The notes beneath the pieces were generated by a model that saw nothing but the letters and a program-made list of their open reading frames with translations, did no database searches and was not told the DNA's origin. From a virus: a stretch of DNA of 64,000 nt. The translations under genes were made by a program, and so were the position numbers. Of the stretch, positions 1,954 through 44,624 are shown piece by piece; positions within the stretch are counted from its first letter, which is position 1, and every line of letters begins with the position of its first letter. Location: positions 210,139 through 274,138 of the IMG/VR virus record IMGVR_UViG_3300042482_001138. One strand, 5' to 3'.

Positions 1954-2592
1954 ATGAAAAACTTTATAATAACTGAATCAGAAAAACAAAGAATTTTAGA
2001 AATGCACCAAAGTGCAACGTCAAGACAATATTTAAAAGAAAATGAAGATGAATGGATAGACATGTCAAATGATATGGAAACAGAATCAGATTTTTCAATG
2101 ATAGATTTAAAAAATGACAGAAATTTCAAAAGATTGGTTTCATTTCTTAAAAGAAATCCTGATGCCGCTATGGATATCAAAAATTCTTTAGAAATGAATA
2201 TCAATGAGGCTCAAAAATACTATGATTATAGTGATGATCGTGGAAAAAAAGAAATTACTAGAAATCAGTATCTTAAAAGAAAACTAATTAATTATGGTAT
2301 ATTTGGATTATTAGGGGCTGCAATTGGTGCAACAATGGGAGCCATGGCTGGTGACCAAGTTTTAGAAGCCGCTCTTCTTATGGCTGGAATGGGTGGTACC
2401 GTGGGAGCGGAACTTGCTGGTCAGATTGGTAGAGAAAGAGTCAAAGACGAACCACCAACAGACGAAACTTCGATAGAAGATGACGAAACATTAAGTGAAC
2501 GTTGGTCACAAAAATACAAAAGATCAATAGATTGTAATAACCCAAAGGGTTTTTCACAAAAAGCCCATTGTCAAGGTAGAAAAAAAAGATAA
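1954..2592 (+). CDS. Leader-bearing protein with glycine-zipper membrane segment and basic Cys tail
   Basis: 212 aa. Leader MKNFIITESEKQRILEMHQS extends to YLKE at residues 26-29. The centre (about 114-150) is a glycine/alanine-zipper hydrophobic segment (LLGAAIGATMGAMAGDQ, then LLMAGMGGTVGAELAGQIG), typical of membrane-inserting proteins. The C terminus ends CNNPKGFSQKAHCQGRKKR, with two Cys, His and a basic run that could bind nucleic acid or metal; I recall similar tails on uncharacterised phage proteins but cannot check. The domain order suits an internal virion protein that enters a membrane during DNA delivery (inference). Confidence 0.75.
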   Translation: MKNFIITESEKQRILEMHQSATSRQYLKENEDEWIDMSNDMETESDFSMIDLKNDRNFKRLVSFLKRNPDAAMDIKNSLEMNINEAQKYYDYSDDRGKKEITRNQYLKRKLINYGIFGLLGAAIGATMGAMAGDQVLEAALLMAGMGGTVGAELAGQIGRERVKDEPPTDETSIEDDETLSERWSQKYKRSIDCNNPKGFSQKAHCQGRKKR

Positions 2593-38413: not shown

Positions 38414-38485
38414 GCTCTGTAAGCATTGTTGGAGATGCGCCTGACTTGTAATCAGGAGAAATCAGTTCGATTCTGGTACGGAGCT
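38414..38485 (+). tRNA. tRNA-Thr(TGT)
   Basis: Acceptor GCTCTGT/ACGGAGC, anticodon arm CCTGA-CTTGTAA-TCAGG, T loop TTCGATT. CCA not encoded. Confidence 0.9.
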
Positions 38486-38518
38486 CAAAAAGGTTCTTTG
38501 ACATATTGGTCTTTATAG

Positions 38519-38589
38519 TGTTCCCTCGTCTAATGGCAGGACACGCGGTTTTGGTCCGTGGAATTGGGGTTCGAGTCCCTGGGGAACAA
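38519..38589 (+). tRNA. tRNA-Gln(TTG)
   Basis: Acceptor TGTTCCC/GGGAACA, anticodon arm CGCGG-TTTTGGT-CCGTG. CCA not encoded. Confidence 0.88.
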
Positions 38590-38595
38590 CAATAA

Positions 38596-38679
38596 GGAAG
38601 AGTAATCACAACGGCTTGTGACTCCGTCTTGAAAACGGCAGGTACTGAAAGGTATGGGGATCGACACCTCACTCTTCCT
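38596..38679 (+). tRNA. tRNA-Ser(TGA)
   Basis: Acceptor GGAAGAG/CTCTTCC, anticodon loop CTTGAAA, long variable arm. The T loop is ATCGACA, with A instead of T at position 54. Confidence 0.85.
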
Positions 38680-38688
38680 CAACAATAA

Positions 38689-38761
38689 CTAGGTGTAGCT
38701 CAGATGGTAGAGCGGGTGGTTTGGGACCATCAGGCCGCAGGTTCGATCCCTGTCACTTAGA
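38689..38761 (+). tRNA. tRNA-Pro(TGG)
   Basis: Acceptor CTAGGTG/CACTTAG, anticodon arm GGTGG-TTTGGGA-CCATC, T loop TTCGATC. Confidence 0.9.
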
Positions 38762-38765
38762 CAAC

Positions 38766-38841
38766 GTCTTCGTAGCTCAGTTGGTTTTAGAGCACCTCAC
38801 TTTTAATGAGGGGGTCACAGGTTCGAGCCCTGTCGGGGACA
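38766..38841 (+). tRNA. tRNA-Lys(TTT)
   Basis: Acceptor GTCTTCG/CGGGGAC, anticodon arm CCTCA-CTTTTAA-TGAGG. Confidence 0.92.
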
Positions 38842-38908
38842 CAAAAATTTAGTAAAACTGAGCGATTTATACCAAAAAATGGTTATATTTGCGTAAATAA
38901 ACTAAAAA

Positions 38909-38982
38909 ACACTCTTAGCTCAGATGGTAGTAGCGGTTGTCTTACATACAACAGGTCACAGGTTCGATCCCTGTAGGGTGTA
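38909..38982 (+). tRNA. tRNA-Val(TAC)
   Basis: Acceptor ACACTCT/AGGGTGT, anticodon arm GTTGT-CTTACAT-ACAAC. A TATATTTG box lies at 38884-38891 but without a well-placed TTG. Confidence 0.9.
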
Positions 38983-38988
38983 CAATAA

Positions 38989-39071
38989 GGGAGAGTTGAG
39001 CAATTGGTTGGCTCAGCAGACTGTAAATCTGTCGTCGTAAGACCTTGGGGGTTCGAGTCCCTCCTCTCCCA
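38989..39071 (+). tRNA. tRNA-Tyr(GTA)
   Basis: Acceptor GGGAGAG/CTCTCCC, anticodon arm CAGA-CTGTAAA-TCTG, long variable arm as usual for bacterial Tyr. Confidence 0.92.
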
Positions 39072-39080
39072 CCACAAAAA

Positions 39081-39153
39081 GGACAAGTAGCTCAATTGGT
39101 AGAGCACCGCACTGTTAATGCGGGGGTTACAGGATCGTACCCTGTCTTGTCCG
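39081..39153 (+). tRNA. tRNA-Asn(GTT)
   Basis: Acceptor GGACAAG/CTTGTCC, anticodon arm CCGCA-CTGTTAA-TGCGG. T loop ATCGTAC (A54 instead of T54). Confidence 0.9.
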
Positions 39154-39159
39154 CAATAA

Positions 39160-39232
39160 GTTCACGTAGCTCAATTGGTAGAGCGCCGATCTGATACGTC
39201 GGAGGTAATGGGATCGTAACCCGTCGTGAACA
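39160..39232 (+). tRNA. tRNA-Ile(GAT)
   Basis: Acceptor GTTCACG/CGTGAAC, anticodon arm CCGAT-CTGATAC-GTCGG. T loop ATCGTAA (A54). Confidence 0.9.
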
Positions 39233-39235
39233 CTA

Positions 39236-39321
39236 CGGAAGATAAACCTTGATGGCGATAGGGTCCGCCTGCTAAGCGAGATGTACCTTTGGGTATTTGG
39301 TTCGATTCCAATGTCTTCCGC
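39236..39321 (+). tRNA. tRNA-Ser(GCT)
   Basis: Acceptor CGGAAGA/TCTTCCG, anticodon loop CTGCTAA within a CGC/GCG stem, long variable arm (ATGTACCTTTGGGTAT). The discriminator appears to be C, unusual for Ser. Confidence 0.82.
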
Positions 39322-39326
39322 AAAAC

Positions 39327-39396
39327 GCCGATAGGAAAGGTTTCCGATCCGGGCTCATATCCTGGATGTCATTGGGTTCGATACCCTTTATCGGTA
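39327..39396 (+). tRNA. tRNA-Met(CAT), elongator
   Basis: Acceptor GCCGATA/TATCGGT, anticodon arm CCGGG-CTCATAT-CCTGG, T loop TTCGATA. Only 70 nt, with a short D arm. Confidence 0.82.
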
Positions 39397-39403
39397 CTAC
39401 ATG

Positions 39404-39476
39404 GTGTATGTAGCTCAGTTGGCAGAGTGCTTGATTGTGGTTCAAGAGGTCATGGGTTCGACCCCCATCATACACA
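39404..39476 (+). tRNA. tRNA-His(GTG)
   Basis: Acceptor GTGTATG/CATACAC, anticodon arm CTTGA-TTGTGGT-TCAAG. A G is present at the -1 position, but the discriminator is A. Confidence 0.9.
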
Positions 39477-39477
39477 C

Positions 39478-39574
39478 AAATAGTTCACAACGGACAAGGC
39501 TTAGGCTCAAAGTGTGAGGTTATAATTCCTTATATTCCCTGAGGTGGGTGGCGAGTGGTTGACCAGAACTATTT
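39478..39574 (+). ncRNA. Stem-closed RNA element A between tRNA-His and tRNA-Arg
   Basis: Closed by the 9-bp stem AAATAGTTC/GAACTATTT, abutting both tRNAs. Inner hairpins include CTCA-AAGTG-TGAG and TGG-TTGA-CCA. It has no T loop or anticodon arm, so it is not a tRNA. It shares the phrase ACAACGGACA with element B. Confidence 0.55.
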
Positions 39575-39576
39575 AT

Positions 39577-39648
39577 ACCTTCGTAGCTTAATGGAAAAGC
39601 CTCAGAATACGAATCTGATGATTGGGAGTTCGACCCTCTCCGAAGGTA
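39577..39648 (+). tRNA. tRNA-Arg(ACG)
   Basis: Acceptor ACCTTCG/CGAAGGT, anticodon arm TCAGA-ATACGAA-TCTGA. Wobble A34 would need TadA deamination. Confidence 0.9.
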
Positions 39649-39649
39649 C

Positions 39650-39782
39650 AAAAGATGATAGGAAGCGTAGAACAACGGACACGGAGGGGTGTTCGCAAGG
39701 GTACACACTAAGAATATATTTCTCTCTAAGGGTGTGTGAAGTCATACGATGGGATTCCTGATAAAGTTGTTCATCATCTTTT
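39650..39782 (+). ncRNA. Stem-closed RNA element B
   Basis: Closed by the perfect 10-bp stem AAAAGATGAT/ATCATCTTTT, continued by GAACAAC (39670-39676) with GTTGTTC (39766-39772). Inner pairings include CACAC...GTGTG. It directly follows tRNA-Arg(ACG) and precedes tRNA-Arg(TCT). Confidence 0.6.
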
Positions 39783-39786
39783 ATTT

Positions 39787-39858
39787 ACCCCTTTCGTATA
39801 ATGGAAGTACAACACTCTTCTAAGGTGTCAGGTTGGAGTTCGAATCTCTGAGGGGGTA
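39787..39858 (+). tRNA. tRNA-Arg(TCT)
   Basis: Acceptor ACCCCTT/AGGGGGT, anticodon arm ACACT-CTTCTAA-GGTGT. Confidence 0.9.
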
Positions 39859-39869
39859 CAACAAAATAC

Positions 39870-39940
39870 GCGTCTCTGGTGTAATGGTAGCATGATGGAT
39901 TCCAAACCCATCGGTCAGGGTTCGAGCCCTTGGGGACGCG
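39870..39940 (+). tRNA. tRNA-Trp(CCA)
   Basis: Acceptor GCGTCTC/GGGACGC, anticodon region GATGG-ATTCCAAA-CCCATC with CCA in the loop, T loop TTCGAGC. Confidence 0.85.
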
Positions 39941-39948
39941 CTAATTAA

Positions 39949-40021
39949 GGACAGGTAGCTCAGTTGGTAGAGCGTTGGACTGAAGATCCAAGCGTCGGGG
40001 GTTCAATTCCCTCCCTGTCCA
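39949..40021 (+). tRNA. tRNA-Phe(GAA)
   Basis: Acceptor GGACAGG/CCTGTCC, anticodon arm TTGGA-CTGAAGA-TCCAA, T loop TTCAATT. Confidence 0.92.
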
Positions 40022-40032
40022 CAAAATAAAAT

Positions 40033-40063
40033 TTGTAATTTCTAACAAAAACCATTATCTTTG
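40033..40063 (+). promoter_or_regulatory. Bacteroidota-type promoter, nearly leaderless
   Basis: TTG (40033-40035), 20 nt, TATCTTTG (40056-40063), followed after 4 nt by the ATG at 40068, so the transcript should start at or beside the start codon. Confidence 0.75.
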
Positions 40064-40067
40064 TATA

Positions 40068-40562
40068 ATGAAACATTTACCATACGAAGCTACAGGAAAG
40101 GCAATTAAGGGATATTCTGAATCAGAAACCGCTAGACGTGAAACAAATGACTGTGTGGTTAGAGCATTTGCATCGTCATTTGAAGTGTCTTATGATTATG
40201 CCCATAAGTTTGTTGCGGATGAATTTGGTAGAAGACCAAGAAAAGGAACTTACGGAACTGTATCAAAACTTGTCAAAATGGCCGACAGTTTATTTAAAGT
40301 TAATGGTAAAAAAGTTTGTCCTGTTGGTATTAGACACAACGATAATATGTTAAGATCTTTGATGTATGATGTTAAAGTGAAAGGGGAAATTAAAAAAAGA
40401 AATATGACTGTTGGGACATTTGTTAAACAAAATCCAAAAGGAACTTTTTTTGTTTTGGTTAGACGACACGCATTTACAATCAAAGATGGTGTTGTAATTG
40501 GTAATTGGGATGACGCTATAAAAACAAAAAGACCAATGAGATGTGCCTTCAGAATTAAATAA
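40068..40562 (+). CDS. Papain-fold cysteine peptidase-like phage protein (164 aa)
   Basis: RRETNDCVVRAFASSFEVSY places Cys29 at the start of a helix, as in papain-like folds, and LVRRHAFTIKDGVVIGNWDD supplies His134 and Asn146, a plausible Cys-His-Asn triad. I recall related TNDCVVRA proteins in many phages, with unproven substrate. It lies inside the tRNA island, is followed at 12 nt by the RNase H-like gene, and is driven by a host-type promoter, consistent with early expression. Confidence 0.75.
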   Translation: MKHLPYEATGKAIKGYSESETARRETNDCVVRAFASSFEVSYDYAHKFVADEFGRRPRKGTYGTVSKLVKMADSLFKVNGKKVCPVGIRHNDNMLRSLMYDVKVKGEIKKRNMTVGTFVKQNPKGTFFVLVRRHAFTIKDGVVIGNWDDAIKTKRPMRCAFRIK

Positions 40563-40574
40563 AAAAATAAAAAA

Positions 40575-41030
40575 ATGAACCGTGTATTTAGAACGGTGGA
40601 AGGGGTTTCTATACCTGATATTGTAAAACATACTATTGATATTCTTAAAGAATGTCCATATGCTGAAATACACATTGGTACAGACTCACAAAACCATAGA
40701 AGATCAACCGTGTATGTTACGGCAATAGCATATAGATATGGTAACCGTGGGGTTCACTACATTTATCATAAACAAAAAATTAAAAAAATTCGTGATAAGT
40801 GGACAAGATTATGGAATGAAGCTGATTATTCGATCGAAGTTGCAAATTGGTTGACAAATAAAATAAAGGTTCAAGTTGAAATAGACCTTGATTACAATTA
40901 TCAAGAAAAGTACTTCAGTTCGAAGTTAGTTGGTCCAGCGGTTGGGTGGGTACAATCGTTAGGTTATAAGGCAAATATAAAACCAAATAATCAAATTGCA
41001 ACAAGAGCGGCAGACCACCACTGTCGTTAA
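40575..41030 (+). CDS. RNase H-like protein, DUF458/YkuK type (151 aa)
   Basis: IHIGTDSQNHRRSTVYVTAI ... NRGVHYIYHK is the signature of the YkuK/DUF458 family, which has an RNase H-like fold with the first acidic residue in GTDSQ. A second acidic pair EIDLDYN lies in the next strand (VQVEIDLDYNYQ). The stop codon abuts tRNA-Cys by 2 nt. Activity of the family is not established; a role in RNA processing within this RNA-rich locus is a reasonable guess. Confidence 0.78.
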   Translation: MNRVFRTVEGVSIPDIVKHTIDILKECPYAEIHIGTDSQNHRRSTVYVTAIAYRYGNRGVHYIYHKQKIKKIRDKWTRLWNEADYSIEVANWLTNKIKVQVEIDLDYNYQEKYFSSKLVGPAVGWVQSLGYKANIKPNNQIATRAADHHCR

Positions 41031-41032
41031 TT

Positions 41033-41104
41033 GGTCGGGTGTCTGATGGGTAAAGTCTCGGTCTGCAAAACCGTAGTATGTGGGTTCGAATCCCACCCCG
41101 ACCT
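41033..41104 (+). tRNA. tRNA-Cys(GCA)
   Basis: Acceptor GGTCGGG/CCCGACC, anticodon arm CGGT-CTGCAAA-ACCG; begins 2 nt after the RNase H-like gene stop. Confidence 0.9.
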
Positions 41105-41113
41105 CAACAAAAT

Positions 41114-41187
41114 GCCCCTATGGCGGAATTGGTATACGCGTGTGACTTAGGATCACAATCTTGCAGGTTCGAGTCCTGCTGGGGGTA
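41114..41187 (+). tRNA. tRNA-Leu(TAG) with class I-type short variable loop
   Basis: Acceptor GCCCCTA/TGGGGGT, Leu-like D arm (GCGGAATTGGTATACGC), anticodon arm TGTGA-CTTAGGA-TCACA. The variable region is only ATCTT before the T arm GCAGG-TTCGAGT-CCTGC, whereas bacterial Leu tRNAs normally have a long variable arm. Confidence 0.85.
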
Positions 41188-41205
41188 CAAATATTTTTAT
41201 TAGTA

Positions 41206-41213
41206 TATTTATA
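41206..41213 (+). promoter_or_regulatory. TATTTATA late-promoter-like box (near match)
   Basis: TATTTATAC, 12 nt before the ATG at 41227. Confidence 0.5.
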
Positions 41214-41226
41214 CTAAAAGATTATT

Positions 41227-41817
41227 ATGAAAAAGATTATAAGACTTACTGAATCAGATCTCGCTCGTATAGTTGGACGAGTTATTAAAGAAGAATATGA
41301 TGAAGATGATGAAGTGGAGGTTACACCTGAAATGATTATCAAAATGCTTATGGATAGTGCCGAATCAACCCCACAAGAAAATTATGATGACCTATATGAT
41401 TGGATGCAAGATGTATTTTCACCGGTTGAAAGTGAACTTGAGGATATGGGGTATGATATTGACGACCTTCGTATGACATATGATGATGTTATAATGAGTT
41501 TATGGGATGATAATGATGAAGATGATGAGGAATCATTATATGAATCAGATCTCGCTCGTATCGTTAAACAAGTTATTAGTGAATCTAAAAAGAATCTTAG
41601 TAAATCTGAAATATTGAAGATGTCAAAAGATGAGCTAAAAGATGTTTATGGTGAATTGGAAGTAAAAGGTGAGTATCACGGAAACAAAGGAACATTCCAC
41701 CACTTCAAAAGAACTGCAATCGGAGATATTGTCTGTAGTTTTAGAACTGATGACTCAACACCATCAGGATTGAAAAGAAATACTCAAGGAATTAAAGTCA
41801 AAAATTTAGATTTTTAA
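41227..41817 (+). CDS. Leader-bearing protein with a second internal leader copy (196 aa)
   Basis: The N-terminal leader contains LTESDLARIVGRVIKEE; after an acidic segment a second copy, YESDLARIVKQVISESKK, begins near residue 105. The two copies share 20 identical bases (41251-41270 and 41542-41561), so the duplication is recent compared with other leaders. The C-terminal domain (about 125-196, LKMSKDELKDVYGELEVKGE ... FRTDDSTPSGLKRN) is small and basic. It looks like a tandem fusion of two leader-bearing proteins. Confidence 0.8.
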   Translation: MKKIIRLTESDLARIVGRVIKEEYDEDDEVEVTPEMIIKMLMDSAESTPQENYDDLYDWMQDVFSPVESELEDMGYDIDDLRMTYDDVIMSLWDDNDEDDEESLYESDLARIVKQVISESKKNLSKSEILKMSKDELKDVYGELEVKGEYHGNKGTFHHFKRTAIGDIVCSFRTDDSTPSGLKRNTQGIKVKNLDF

Positions 41818-41847
41818 TAAAACTTGACACTTTTGAAATTATTAGTA

Positions 41848-41856
41848 TATTTATAA
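41848..41856 (+). promoter_or_regulatory. TATTTATAA late-promoter-like box
   Basis: Exact copy, 20 nt before a 22-codon ORF at 41877. Confidence 0.5.
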
Positions 41857-41876
41857 AACAAATTAAAAAACCGCAA

Positions 41877-41945
41877 ATGAAAAATTTACACATATTATTG
41901 ATAGGGGGCGATTTAGCTGAAGCAACTTTCAAGAAGAGGGTGTAA
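41877..41945 (+). CDS. Possible 22-aa peptide in a short transcription unit
   Basis: MKNLHILLIGGDLAEATFKK then RV, between a TATTTATAA box and a strong terminator at 41969. The whole unit is about 150 nt. It may instead be a small RNA. Confidence 0.3.
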   Translation: MKNLHILLIGGDLAEATFKKRV

Positions 41946-41968
41946 TATTTTATACATTTAATATTTAG

Positions 41969-42000
41969 AACCCCTCTTCCAAAAAAGAGGGGTTTTTTGT
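41969..42000 (+). terminator. Rho-independent terminator
   Basis: AACCCCTCTT / AAGAGGGGTT followed by TTTT. Confidence 0.9.
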
Positions 42001-42029
42001 TTTAGGTTCTTTGAAATAATGGTAATAAT

Positions 42030-42114
42030 GGTTCGGTGGTGGAATTGGCAATACACGACAGGTTTAAGCCCTGTTTCCCATTGAGGATTGTGGGTTCGAG
42101 TCCCACCCGGACTA
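42030..42114 (+). tRNA. tRNA-Leu(TAA)
   Basis: Acceptor GGTTCGG/CCGGACT, anticodon arm ACAGG-TTTAAGC-CCTGT, 15-nt variable arm, T arm GTGGG-TTCGAGT-CCCAC. Confidence 0.9.
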
Positions 42115-42118
42115 CAAC

Positions 42119-42216
42119 AAAAACACATAAACTTTGGTTCCCACACAGCGGTGAGACGGGGTAAGTTATATACAATTTCTCGGGGCTGGAAGTAGAAAGC
42201 CAAAGAATGTGTTTTT
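42119..42216 (+). ncRNA. Stem-closed RNA element C
   Basis: Closed by AAAAACACAT (42119-42128) with ATGTGTTTTT (42207-42216), then CTTTGG (42132-42137) with CCAAAG (42200-42205). Starts 4 nt after tRNA-Leu(TAA). Its 3' side ends in a T-run and may also terminate transcription. Confidence 0.6.
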
Positions 42217-42239
42217 TTAAAAAAAACTTTACAAAGTAT

Positions 42240-42270
42240 TTGGTAGAACAAAATAAAAAATTTAATTTTG
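42240..42270 (+). promoter_or_regulatory. Bacteroidota-type promoter
   Basis: TTG (42240-42242), 20 nt, TAATTTTG (42263-42270), with the ATG of a 38-aa ORF 6 nt further on. Confidence 0.65.
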
Positions 42271-42276
42271 TAATAA

Positions 42277-42393
42277 ATGAAGACAATTGAAGTTACATAT
42301 CAAGAAATCAAAATGGCAACAAGGCCAAATGTGTATAAAAATAAAAAAAAATACACAAGAAAAGAAAAACATAAAAAAGATTTGGTAGATTAA
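42277..42393 (+). CDS. Small basic protein (38 aa)
   Basis: MKTIEVTYQEIKMATRPNVY then a Lys-rich tail. Its start lies 6 nt behind a host-type promoter, implying a near-leaderless mRNA, and its end overlaps the -33 element of the next promoter. Plausibly an RNA- or DNA-binding early peptide. Confidence 0.5.
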   Translation: MKTIEVTYQEIKMATRPNVYKNKKKYTRKEKHKKDLVD

Positions 42394-42412
42394 AAAAAAT
42401 CTTATATCTTTG
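42382..42412 (+). promoter_or_regulatory. Bacteroidota-type promoter for the second tRNA block
   Basis: TTG (42382-42384), 20 nt, TATCTTTG (42405-42412), just upstream of element D and the tRNAs that follow. Confidence 0.7.
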
Positions 42413-42421
42413 TTAAACAAA

Positions 42422-42598
42422 TGACGGGGGTAGGAAAATTAGTGTTGTGGATTCCTACTCCCGTGTAAAAGGGAAGAAAGTTCTTTGATTTAAAATATTG
42501 TGGTTGTAAGCAATGGGAAACTCGTTAAGTACATCAACCAGTTGGCTCAAGATGGTGAAACGAGAGTGTGAGTCAACTACTAAATCACAAAAAAAATG
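42422..42598 (+). ncRNA. Structured RNA elements D and E
   Basis: D: a 13-bp hairpin (42424-42436 with 42452-42464, one G-T pair). E: TGATTTA with TAAATCA closes a second domain that contains AGTTGGCTC...GAGTCAACT. Both lie at the 5' end of the transcript predicted from the 42382 promoter. Short ORFs here are not convincing. Confidence 0.5.
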
Positions 42599-42602
42599 AA
42601 AT

Positions 42603-42727
42603 AGGCAAGTGGCGGAATTTATGGCAGACGCTTAGGTTGATTCCCCGTAAGAAGTCACCGAGATATAGCTGGGGATGTCTCTTGAAAAGGGAACTATATC
42701 GTACAGGTTCGAATCCTGTTTTGCCTA
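42603..42727 (+). tRNA. tRNA-Leu-like RNA with long insertion
   Basis: Acceptor AGGCAAG/TTTGCCT, Leu-type D arm (GCGGAATTTATGGCAGACGC) and a perfect T arm ACAGG-TTCGAAT-CCTGT. Between D and T arms there are about 71 nt instead of 25-40, including a 7-bp stem GATATAG/CTATATC. The anticodon cannot be assigned safely (GAT or GAA are visible in candidate loops). Could be an intron, an enlarged variable arm or a degenerate tRNA. Confidence 0.5.
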
Positions 42728-42732
42728 CACAT

Positions 42733-42805
42733 CGCGGGATGTGGAAGATGGTTATCCGCTCGGTCTCATAAGCCGAGATCGCCGGTTCGAGTCCGGCTCC
42801 CGCAA
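42733..42805 (+). tRNA. Initiator tRNA-fMet(CAT)
   Basis: Acceptor CGCGGGA/TCCCGCA has the C1-A72 mismatch that defines bacterial initiators; anticodon arm TCGGT-CTCATAA-GCCGA; T arm GCCGG-TTCGAGT-CCGGC. Confidence 0.88.
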
Positions 42806-42810
42806 CTTAA

Positions 42811-42870
42811 AGGGTGGATAGGTGGAAGGGCCTTTCCTGAAAGACGGTTTACTAGGCCCGTGTCCACCCT
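42811..42870 (+). ncRNA. Small stem-closed RNA element F (60 nt)
   Basis: AGGGTGGA/TCCACCCT closes it, with an inner GGGCC/GGCCC stem. No T arm, so not a tRNA. Confidence 0.5.
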
Positions 42871-42881
42871 ACTGAATTTAT

Positions 42882-42962
42882 GCTGACGTACCAGTGGATG
42901 CTTATATCATCTATACCTGTAGCGGTAAGTTGAAAACGTTGGTTCGAATCCAACCGTCAGTA
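42882..42962 (+). tRNA. Candidate tRNA-Ile(TAT) lacking a normal D arm
   Basis: Acceptor GCTGACG/CGTCAGT and T arm GTTGG-TTCGAAT-CCAAC are clear. GGATG-CTTATAT-CATCT gives a TAT anticodon, but only 7 nt separate it from the acceptor, leaving no room for a D arm; a TACC-TGTAGC-GGTA hairpin sits on the variable side. Isotype uncertain. Confidence 0.5.
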
Positions 42963-42965
42963 CGG

Positions 42966-43175
42966 GAGTGTATGCAGTAGAGATCTGCTTATGATGGTAG
43001 GGACAAACACTTTAAAAAAGGGTCCCAAAGAGATAAGCCGTTTAGTAGTTTTGGTCGATAAAAACTAACGGATTTTATAGTAATGGTTCACCGATCGAAA
43101 CCAATACTCATGATGTCAGAAAGGTTGATCACCTAATTCATGTAAACACCGTGACAACACCCCAAAGTTGTCACA
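42966..43175 (+). ncRNA. Multi-hairpin RNA element G (about 210 nt)
   Basis: Tandem hairpins: GCAG/CTGC (42974-42988), GGGAC/GTCCC (43000-43026), CCGTTTAGT/ACTAACGG (43039-43072), TGGTT/AACCA (43084-43103) and a perfect 8-bp GTGACAAC/GTTGTCAC (43151-43174). No convincing ORF. Confidence 0.55.
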
Positions 43176-43180
43176 CTTTT

Positions 43181-43253
43181 GCGGGAGTAGCTCAATTGGT
43201 AGAGTTCCAGCCTTCCAAGCTGGCTGTTGAGGGTTCGAATCCCTTCTCCCGCT
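43181..43253 (+). tRNA. tRNA-Gly(TCC)
   Basis: Acceptor GCGGGAG/CTCCCGC, anticodon arm CCAGC-CTTCCAA-GCTGG. Confidence 0.92.
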
Positions 43254-43260
43254 CCAAGTT

Positions 43261-43330
43261 GGGCCTGATGCCGACGGCAGGTCGAGTGGTTTGCAACCAC
43301 ATCGTTTGGGTTCGATTCCCACAGTGTCCA
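43261..43330 (+). tRNA. tRNA-Ala(TGC)
   Basis: Anticodon arm GTGG-TTTGCAA-CCAC, T arm TGGG-TTCGATT-CCCA. The acceptor GGGCCTG/AGTGTCC has mismatches but keeps the G3-T70 pair that specifies Ala. Followed by an encoded CCA (43331-43333). Confidence 0.8.
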
Positions 43331-43357
43331 CCAAATAAACAAAAAAACAAAGTAGTG

Positions 43358-43513
43358 ATGAAGGAAGTTTTGTCAGGAACTTTAAAATCAAGAAAAGTTA
43401 ATTTTGTTCAGATTGAAAATAACAGTGATTTTTTAAGTTCTTTAAGAAAAAAAATAAAAAAAAGAATAAGTAATTTAAAAAAAACAATTAAATTTGTAAA
43501 AAAAAGAAGATGA
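43358..43513 (+). CDS. Small basic protein (51 aa)
   Basis: MKEVLSGTLKSRKVNFVQIE followed by a Lys/Arg-rich helix. Lies between tRNA-Ala and tRNA-Glu; its stop is inside the 5' strand of element H, so one overlaps the other. Confidence 0.5.
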   Translation: MKEVLSGTLKSRKVNFVQIENNSDFLSSLRKKIKKRISNLKKTIKFVKKRR

Positions 43514-43586
43514 GTTTCCCTACATCCCGGATTAGTGAGAAACTTAAAGAGGGACAAAAGTGGTACACAAGTCCACGACTCATCTT
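43507..43586 (+). ncRNA. Stem-closed RNA element H
   Basis: Closed by AAGATGAGT (43507-43515) with ACTCATCTT (43578-43586); inner GTTTC/GAAAC and GTGG/CCAC hairpins. Ends 5 nt before tRNA-Glu. Confidence 0.5.
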
Positions 43587-43591
43587 AATTT

Positions 43592-43663
43592 GGTCGGTTC
43601 ATCTAGGGGTCAGGATACAAGGTTTTCATCCTTGTCACACGGGTTCGAATCCCGTACCGACTA
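43592..43663 (+). tRNA. tRNA-Glu(TTC)
   Basis: Acceptor GGTCGGT/ACCGACT, anticodon arm CAAGG-TTTTCAT-CCTTG. Confidence 0.9.
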
Positions 43664-43688
43664 CAAACCTGTCAAGGTAGTACAGGAA

Positions 43689-43804
43689 GGTCAGGAGTGT
43701 AATGAGGCACGGTGCCAAGTCCTAAAGACACCACGGTCCAAGAGCAATTTGGACGCGAGAAGTTATAAGGTTGCTCATTGTAGGTTCGAATCCTACCCTG
43801 ACTT
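43689..43804 (+). tRNA. tRNA-like RNA with long insertion, isotype unassigned
   Basis: Acceptor GGTCAGG/CCTGACT, short D arm GTG-TAATGAGG-CAC and T arm GTAGG-TTCGAAT-CCTAC are clear. The 84 nt between acceptor and T arm hold several hairpins (GGTG/CACC, GTCCAA/TTGGAC, GAGCAA/TTGCTC), with no standard 7-nt anticodon loop. Same kind of anomaly as 42603. Confidence 0.45.
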
Positions 43805-43805
43805 C

Positions 43806-43957
43806 ACGGTTCGGATCATCACCGAATAGTATGCCCAATACGATGAGAAATGAGGTGATACCTCATATGGGACTTCTGATAGATAAAGGATCTATTCGGT
43901 TTGACTAACCGCGGGAAATATCAAAGAGGGTTGAAGAACTACGTACCCTCGAGTCCA
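43806..43957 (+). ncRNA. Multi-hairpin RNA element I (about 150 nt)
   Basis: Five consecutive hairpins: TTCGG/CCGAA, ATGAGGT-GAT-ACCTCAT, ATAGAT/ATCTAT, CGGTT/AACCG, GAGGGT/ACCCTC, filling the spacer before tRNA-Asp. Confidence 0.55.
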
Positions 43958-43960
43958 ATT

Positions 43961-44032
43961 GGTCCATTGGTGTAGTGGCTAACATTCATCCCTGTCACGG
44001 ATGAGCCGCGAGTTCGATTCTCGCATGGACCG
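43961..44032 (+). tRNA. tRNA-Asp(GTC)
   Basis: Acceptor GGTCCAT/ATGGACC, anticodon arm CATCC-CTGTCAC-GGATG, discriminator G followed by encoded CCA (44033-44035). Confidence 0.92.
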
Positions 44033-44057
44033 CCAAACTTATTAAAAATTAACCATT

Positions 44058-44327
44058 ATGAAAACTTTTCAAGACTTGGAATTTATAAAAATAAATGATG
44101 CACCGTTTATGGTTGGTAAAAAATCCCGTATGCATTTTGATAATGGGTTCGGTGTATCTGTTGTATCACACTCTTATTCATATGGGGGTCGTGATGGTCT
44201 TTATGAAGTCGCGGTCCTTGACTCTGACGACAATCTTACCTACGATACTCCAATAACCAATGATGTAATGGGTTACTTAACTGAACAAGATGTTACTAAT
44301 GTCATGAAACAAGTTCAAGAGCTATAA
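44058..44327 (+). CDS. Hypothetical phage protein (89 aa)
   Basis: MKTFQDLEFIKINDAPFMVG ... NGFGVSVVSHSYSYGGRDGL, a beta-rich small protein of a kind often seen near phage RNA loci; no function known. Starts 22 nt after the tRNA-Asp CCA. Confidence 0.7.
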   Translation: MKTFQDLEFIKINDAPFMVGKKSRMHFDNGFGVSVVSHSYSYGGRDGLYEVAVLDSDDNLTYDTPITNDVMGYLTEQDVTNVMKQVQEL

Positions 44328-44330
44328 AAG

Positions 44331-44399
44331 ATGACAGTTTTTTTATTCATAACATTTTTAACGACACTTTTTTTGTTGAGAAAAAAAAGAAAGTTTTAA
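44331..44399 (+). CDS. Possible 22-aa membrane peptide
   Basis: MTVFLFITFLTTLFLLRKKR then KF: a hydrophobic helix with a basic end, starting 3 nt after the previous stop. May be chance. Confidence 0.3.
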   Translation: MTVFLFITFLTTLFLLRKKRKF

Positions 44400-44412
44400 G
44401 TAGATAAAAAAA

Positions 44413-44486
44413 GGTCTCTTAGCTCATTAGGTTAGAGCAACTGACTCATAATCAGTAGGTGGTTGGTTCGATCCCAACAGGGACCA
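44413..44486 (+). tRNA. tRNA-Ile2(CAT), lysidine type, or Met
   Basis: Acceptor GGTCTCT/AGGGACC, D arm TTAGCTCATTAGGTTAGAGC, anticodon arm ACTGA-CTCATAA-TCAGT. Overall close to the bacterial Ile2 tRNA that reads ATA after TilS modification. Confidence 0.85.
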
Positions 44487-44531
44487 CAAAAGTATTGAAT
44501 ATTTTAAAACAGAAATTATTATTTATAATAT

Positions 44532-44605
44532 GCACCCGTAGCTCAGCTGGATAGAGCAACTGCCTTCTAAGCAGTAGGTCAATGGTTCGAATCCATTCGG
44601 GTGTA
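44532..44605 (+). tRNA. tRNA-Arg(TCT), second copy
   Basis: Acceptor GCACCCG/CGGGTGT, anticodon arm ACTGC-CTTCTAA-GCAGT, followed by a T-run. Different body from the 39787 copy. Confidence 0.92.
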
Positions 44606-44624
44606 CTTTTTTTTTATTTTTTTT

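Follow-up and report, generated by a model that had tools for sequence, protein, structure and literature searches.

A phage gene with two copies of a putative capsid-targeting propeptide: a candidate head polyprotein of uncultivated T4-like jumbo phages

In phage T4, L/I-X-E is the motif after which the prohead protease gp21 cuts, and a 10-residue capsid targeting sequence (CTS) brings internal proteins into the head; its N-terminal part targets, and its last residues direct processing (PMC9026906). The leaders described here resemble those of the T4 internal proteins IPI-III (PMC9026906) in that a short N-terminal leader with the end hydrophobic-x-E precedes unrelated cargos, in phages that also encode a gp21-family protease and a gp23-family capsid protein. 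They differ in that the leader is unrelated in sequence as far as seen, is about 22 residues long with two candidate cleavage sites, and occurs on many genes and also inside fused proteins. Several cuts by gp21 in a single precursor have been described for T4 gp22 and gp67 (PMC9026906), but the resulting fragments are mostly discarded scaffold, whereas the pieces predicted here match stand-alone proteins of relatives. Head proteins of SPN3US and phiKZ are likewise cut several times by a gp21-related protease (PMC10052503); there, the cuts remove one long propeptide, while in the protein described here two cargos are set apart by an internal copy of the leader. The phages considered here are also like the freshwater Bacteroidetes bS21 phages (PMC9723584) in size (293-331 kb), in G+C content (31-34%), in a terminase-portal-protease-capsid block, and in an ORF between head genes that resembles ribosomal protein bS21 by eye (61 aa; L033:9439-9624, minus strand); this likeness is one of genome features, and the excerpts of that study describe no leader family. 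We found no mention of the leader motif in the literature searched.

The window, i.e., the whole stretch of DNA analyzed here, is 64 kb long and lies at the end of a 274-kb IMG/VR record. It contains a gene that is open throughout its frame (Table 1), with a tRNA-Leu gene on one side and a region of additional tRNA genes on the other. Altogether, 22 predicted tRNA genes cluster around it (window 38414-44606). An earlier note on this DNA claimed that the encoded protein carries two leader copies that share 20 identical bases, the second being followed by its own I-S-E. We confirmed the second copy at residues 104-119 (L104-Y-E-S-D-L-A-R-I-V-K-Q-V-I-S-E119), including ISE119; the exact repeat is also real, and its length is 21 bases rather than 20 (TGAATCAGATCTCGCTCGTAT), with the two copies in frame and 291 bases apart. 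When the codons of the gene were shuffled (n = 1,000), the longest repeat was 8-16 bases and never >16, versus the 21 observed. Because leader 2 lacks the first leader residues (MKKIIR) and has Y in place of T, it represents a truncated and not a full copy. It also lacks its own start codon; the nearest in-frame ATG upstream is codon 90, inside cargo 1. The window is identical to two other IMG/VR records (L006 and L007) over 12,588 bases, which makes an assembly slip unlikely; the fused gene is found in three assemblies, and all its copies are identical.

TABLE 1 Features of the two-leader gene (window coordinates)
Feature	Position	Strand	Remarks
Two-leader precursor gene, 196 aa	41227..41817	+	ATG-started open frame; identical in L006, L007
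Leader 1, residues 1-22, MKKIIRLTESDLARIVGRVIKE	41227..41292	+	Class-A; forms one family with 298 distinct N-terminal leaders
Candidate protease site LTE9	41245..41253	+	N-terminal leaders: L 0.99, T 0.96, E 1.00; putative cleavage
Candidate protease site IKE22	41284..41292	+	E in 297/298 leaders, position unscored; putative cleavage
Cargo 1, about residues 23-103	41293..41535	+	71% identity over 73 aa to separate 97-aa protein L013:213-506
Leader 2, residues 104-119, LYESDLARIVKQVISE, truncated copy	41536..41583	+	Profile match
Candidate sites LYE106 and ISE119 in leader 2	within 41536..41583	+	Both sites kept in 7/7 extra copies
Cargo 2, residues 120-196	41584..41814	+	83-97% identity over 72 aa to separate 98/99-aa proteins: L008, L038 (= L012), L074
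First copy of the 21-base direct repeat	41250..41270	+	
Second copy of the 21-base direct repeat	41541..41561	+	

Relatives identified in a viral-contig search have the two halves of this gene as separate genes. L013 and L014 encode the N half by itself (97 aa; MKKVVRLTEADLVRIVKRVIKEQEGEITPE...DDDDDEF), and L008-L012 and L074 encode the C half by itself (98 or 99 aa; MKKIIRLTESDLARIVKQVISESKKN...VKNLDF), each with a single leader. These separate homologues, together with the recurrence of the layout elsewhere (see below), bear out the earlier note's suggestion that the protein is a fusion of two leader-bearing proteins, and we regard the fusion as well supported by sequence comparison. Cargo 1 is acidic and, at low confidence, predicted to be mostly helical. 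Since leader 2 lacks its first residues, we place the fusion junction within it. In the fused protein, leader 1 seems to be a mosaic, the first half of which is like the leader of the separate C half and the end (RVIKE) like that of the separate N half; therefore, recombination between leader repeats is a likely route of fusion. The reverse order, in which the separate C half arose from the fused gene by deletion between the two repeats, is possible; that the N half also occurs separately, however, points to two genes at the outset.

Recombination-type events seem to affect leader DNA readily. The tandem genes L014:648-1163 and 1190-1483 adjoin and have leader DNA that is near-identical over >60 bases, while their cargos are unrelated, which suggests that this leader was recently duplicated or converted. 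Similarly, the leader of L103 is chimeric, and 40 identical bases link it to L103's own second leader. Separately, we observed that the cargo SDPKxGTGKKPEG... follows directly after a class-A leader in L013:1247-2413 and, in L012:767-1687, follows another leader plus another cargo, joined at NE/SDP; judged from the sequences, this pair is a case of cargo shuffling at a leader boundary.

Leader 1 belongs to a set of 298 distinct class-A leaders, a short N-terminal sequence common to cargos that are unrelated after the final Glu. Glu-22 is present in 297 of these 298 leaders, with positions 15-17 outside the score, and the leader end is a strict [IL]xE in 92% and hydrophobic-x-E in 99.7% of them. 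The relative entropy is 3.6 bits at this Glu and 1.45, 0.5, 0.4, 0.3, and 0.1 bits over the five residues that follow, and such an abrupt drop in conservation is the profile that would be expected of a propeptide boundary. The class-A leader offers two candidate sites, LTE9 and IxE22, which are 13 residues apart (LxE/SDL...IxE/; slashes mark candidate cuts). More broadly, [IL]xE with Glu at residues 6-10 is found in 22 of 115 ORFs in the 170-274 kb part of the genome versus 7.3 expected, and in 15 ORFs versus 12.2 expected in the rest of the genome, where there is little excess; the chance rate of the (I/L)xE motif is about 1.4% of positions. The excess in the 170-274 kb part is in keeping with the numerous other types of leader that it contains. 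By analogy with T4, the class-A leader appears to behave like a capsid-targeting propeptide that would be packaged with its cargo and cleaved.

Genes for a T4 gp21-type protease (Peptidase_S77, E = 1e-23) and for a capsid protein of the T4 gp23 type (E = 5e-64) are present in the sister records that carry the identical fused gene; an S77 protease gene is located, for example, at L033:10203-10919. The window's own record gave no match for Gp23 or S77, probably because it is a fragment. The capsid proteins have LINE/A or LINE/S where T4 gp23 has SFLTE/A; the two sites are equated by position and by the common SFL because the pairwise alignment has a gap between SFL and INE. The 269-kb record G014, which holds L129, has two S77 and two Gp23 matches, at 31-35 kb and 233-238 kb, and this doubling of head genes is either a duplication or a chimeric assembly. 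The model of the earlier note, cleavage after (I/L)xE, gains from the conservation of the leader end, the S77 protease of the sister records, and the capsid site, and cleavage itself stays a prediction. Alternatively, the leader could be some other addressing or partner-binding tag and no processed propeptide, in which case the fused protein would stay whole. This is very improbable, given the near-invariant Glu, the abrupt end of conservation at hydrophobic-x-E, and the distribution of the head genes: among 12 long leader-bearing records, S77 and Gp23 are both present in 9, always together, and both missing in 3, which may be fragments.

We scored a profile of leader positions 4-14 on all reading frames of the fetched loci (1.8 Mb) and identified 318 leaders at or near a start as well as seven different proteins with an extra internal or C-terminal leader copy, i.e., the 196-aa protein, L012:8587-9909, L054:4001-4702, L102:2179-3633, L103:1911-2762, L141/L142, in which the extra copy is at the C terminus, and L192:672-1109. 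Because the queries used to fetch the loci resembled leaders, and one query was derived from internal copies, 7 two-leader proteins in about 300 is a sample frequency and no census. All seven also have an N-terminal leader; that of L102 belongs to another class, and that of L103 is a hybrid. Stand-alone versions of the second cargo, with their own leader, are also known for L054 (in L084 and L053) and for L103 (in L096). An "internal" leader match in L104 was rejected, as an ATG lies just upstream. A simple-pattern search for internal copies of four other leader classes found none, Pfam gave no match above the cut-offs for the other two-leader proteins, and scans for relatives of the L012 and L102 two-leader proteins gave only themselves. 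L141 and L142 differ at three positions, none of them in the leader copy, which is too few for a selection test.

Homologues of cargo 1 of L054 carry three different C-terminal modules, each directly after [IL]xE, which gives a further hint at processing after this motif. One of these homologues is encoded in the window (1954-2592, plus strand); it has another leader class (MKNFIITESEK...) and ends in the small module SERWSQKYKRSIDCNNPKGFSQKAHCQGRKKR directly after LSE, and its relatives have other modules at the same place, after IEE or IKE. L033:15328-16281 and the L141/L142 proteins named above (L141:1183-2115 and L142:2140-3072) combine an N-terminal leader with a leader-like helix at the extreme C terminus (EVRITESHLVLLIKNILKEL; ESLKESDLTRIVKRVIQENKK); cleavage at this helix would release no second cargo.

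The first site, which is nearly always LTE in N-terminal leaders, reads LYE, LTE, INE, ITE, ISE, LKE, and LTE in the seven extra copies; thus, the middle residue varies, and I/L and E are constant. The second site reads ISE, IAE, IKE, LKE, ISE, IQE, and IKE. Of these residues, the Glu of the first site was scored by the profile, and the I/L of the first site (position 2) and the whole second site (positions 15-17) were unscored. This pattern would be expected if the targeting constraint were lost and the protease constraint stayed. Site retention is suggestive but not decisive because the sites were inherited from leaders. The fusion could be genuine and the internal copy a relic, such that only the N-terminal leader is cut and one two-domain protein is present in the virion. 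The truncation of the second copy is in line with this, and the DNA shared by the two copies in this gene points to a recent event, which would make the retention of leader 2 explicable without selection. However, both (I/L)xE sites are kept in all extra copies even though residues near the first site vary, and we consider a relic unlikely. We find it quite doubtful that the internal copy instead acts as a second scaffold-binding helix that aids packaging, rather than as a cleavage site. The helix ESDLxRIVxxV is kept alongside the sites, and leader-like helices are also found at C termini (L141/L142 and L033); but in T4 it is the N-terminal part of the CTS that targets (PMC9026906), the very part that the internal copies have lost, and the protease sites are kept too.

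The reading that we consider rather probable is that of a fused head-cargo gene, the precursor of which is cut by a gp21-type protease into two cargos; packaging, cleavage, and the resulting fragments are predictions. Two features of a polyprotein are present, in that both cargos also occur as separate proteins (L013/L014; L008-L012 and L074) and intact protease-site motifs, LYE106 and ISE119, lie between them. We propose that, in a T4-like jumbo phage, a fusion joined two head-cargo genes that both had a capsid-targeting propeptide of their own. The precursor would enter the prohead via its N-terminal leader, and the gp21-type prohead protease would cut after (I/L)xE in leader 1 (after E9 and/or E22) and in leader 2 (after E106 and/or E119). 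Cargo 1 (E23-E106 or S10-E106) and cargo 2 (S120-F196) would be freed as two distinct small proteins, which are probably both packaged and injected, and leader 2 would be removed as a 13-residue spacer (S107-E119). The two cuts and two polypeptides anticipated in the earlier note are plausible on this basis, with the refinement that up to four cuts, and the release of the spacer, are possible because each leader has two candidate sites (LxE and IxE). Several points speak against double cleavage, namely, that leader 2 lacks the N-terminal part, that (I/L)xE is short enough to arise by chance, that the extra copies had both sites from the start through their descent from leaders, and that the C-terminal copy in L141/L142 would free no second cargo.

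Searches of Pfam and PHROGs with the 196-aa protein gave no convincing match. The whole protein and a 23-aa consensus leader had no match by tblastn in 50,697 phage records, and the leader alignment, run against 84,980 prokaryote genomes, gave no confirmed relative; thus, no cultured phage or prophage with the leader was found in these sets. The AlphaFold model of the full protein was too poor (mean pLDDT 43.6), which ruled out a fold search. The T4-type propeptide itself is already known; what appears to be new is a capsid-targeting propeptide in polyprotein form.

The two-leader protein makes the guess that the leader is a cleaved head-targeting propeptide directly testable: it is a natural double-site substrate, and single-site versions of both halves are at hand as controls. 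More tentatively, uncultivated T4-like jumbo phages might repeatedly build head polyproteins in which cargos are joined by internal leaders that are cut out as spacers, so that one targeting event would deliver two injected proteins in a 1:1 ratio and leader DNA would serve as a recombination site for swapping and joining cargos. If true, phages would deliver several proteins at once through capsid-protease polyproteins, and the leader would provide a reading key to the many leader-bearing genes without assigned function in these large phages.
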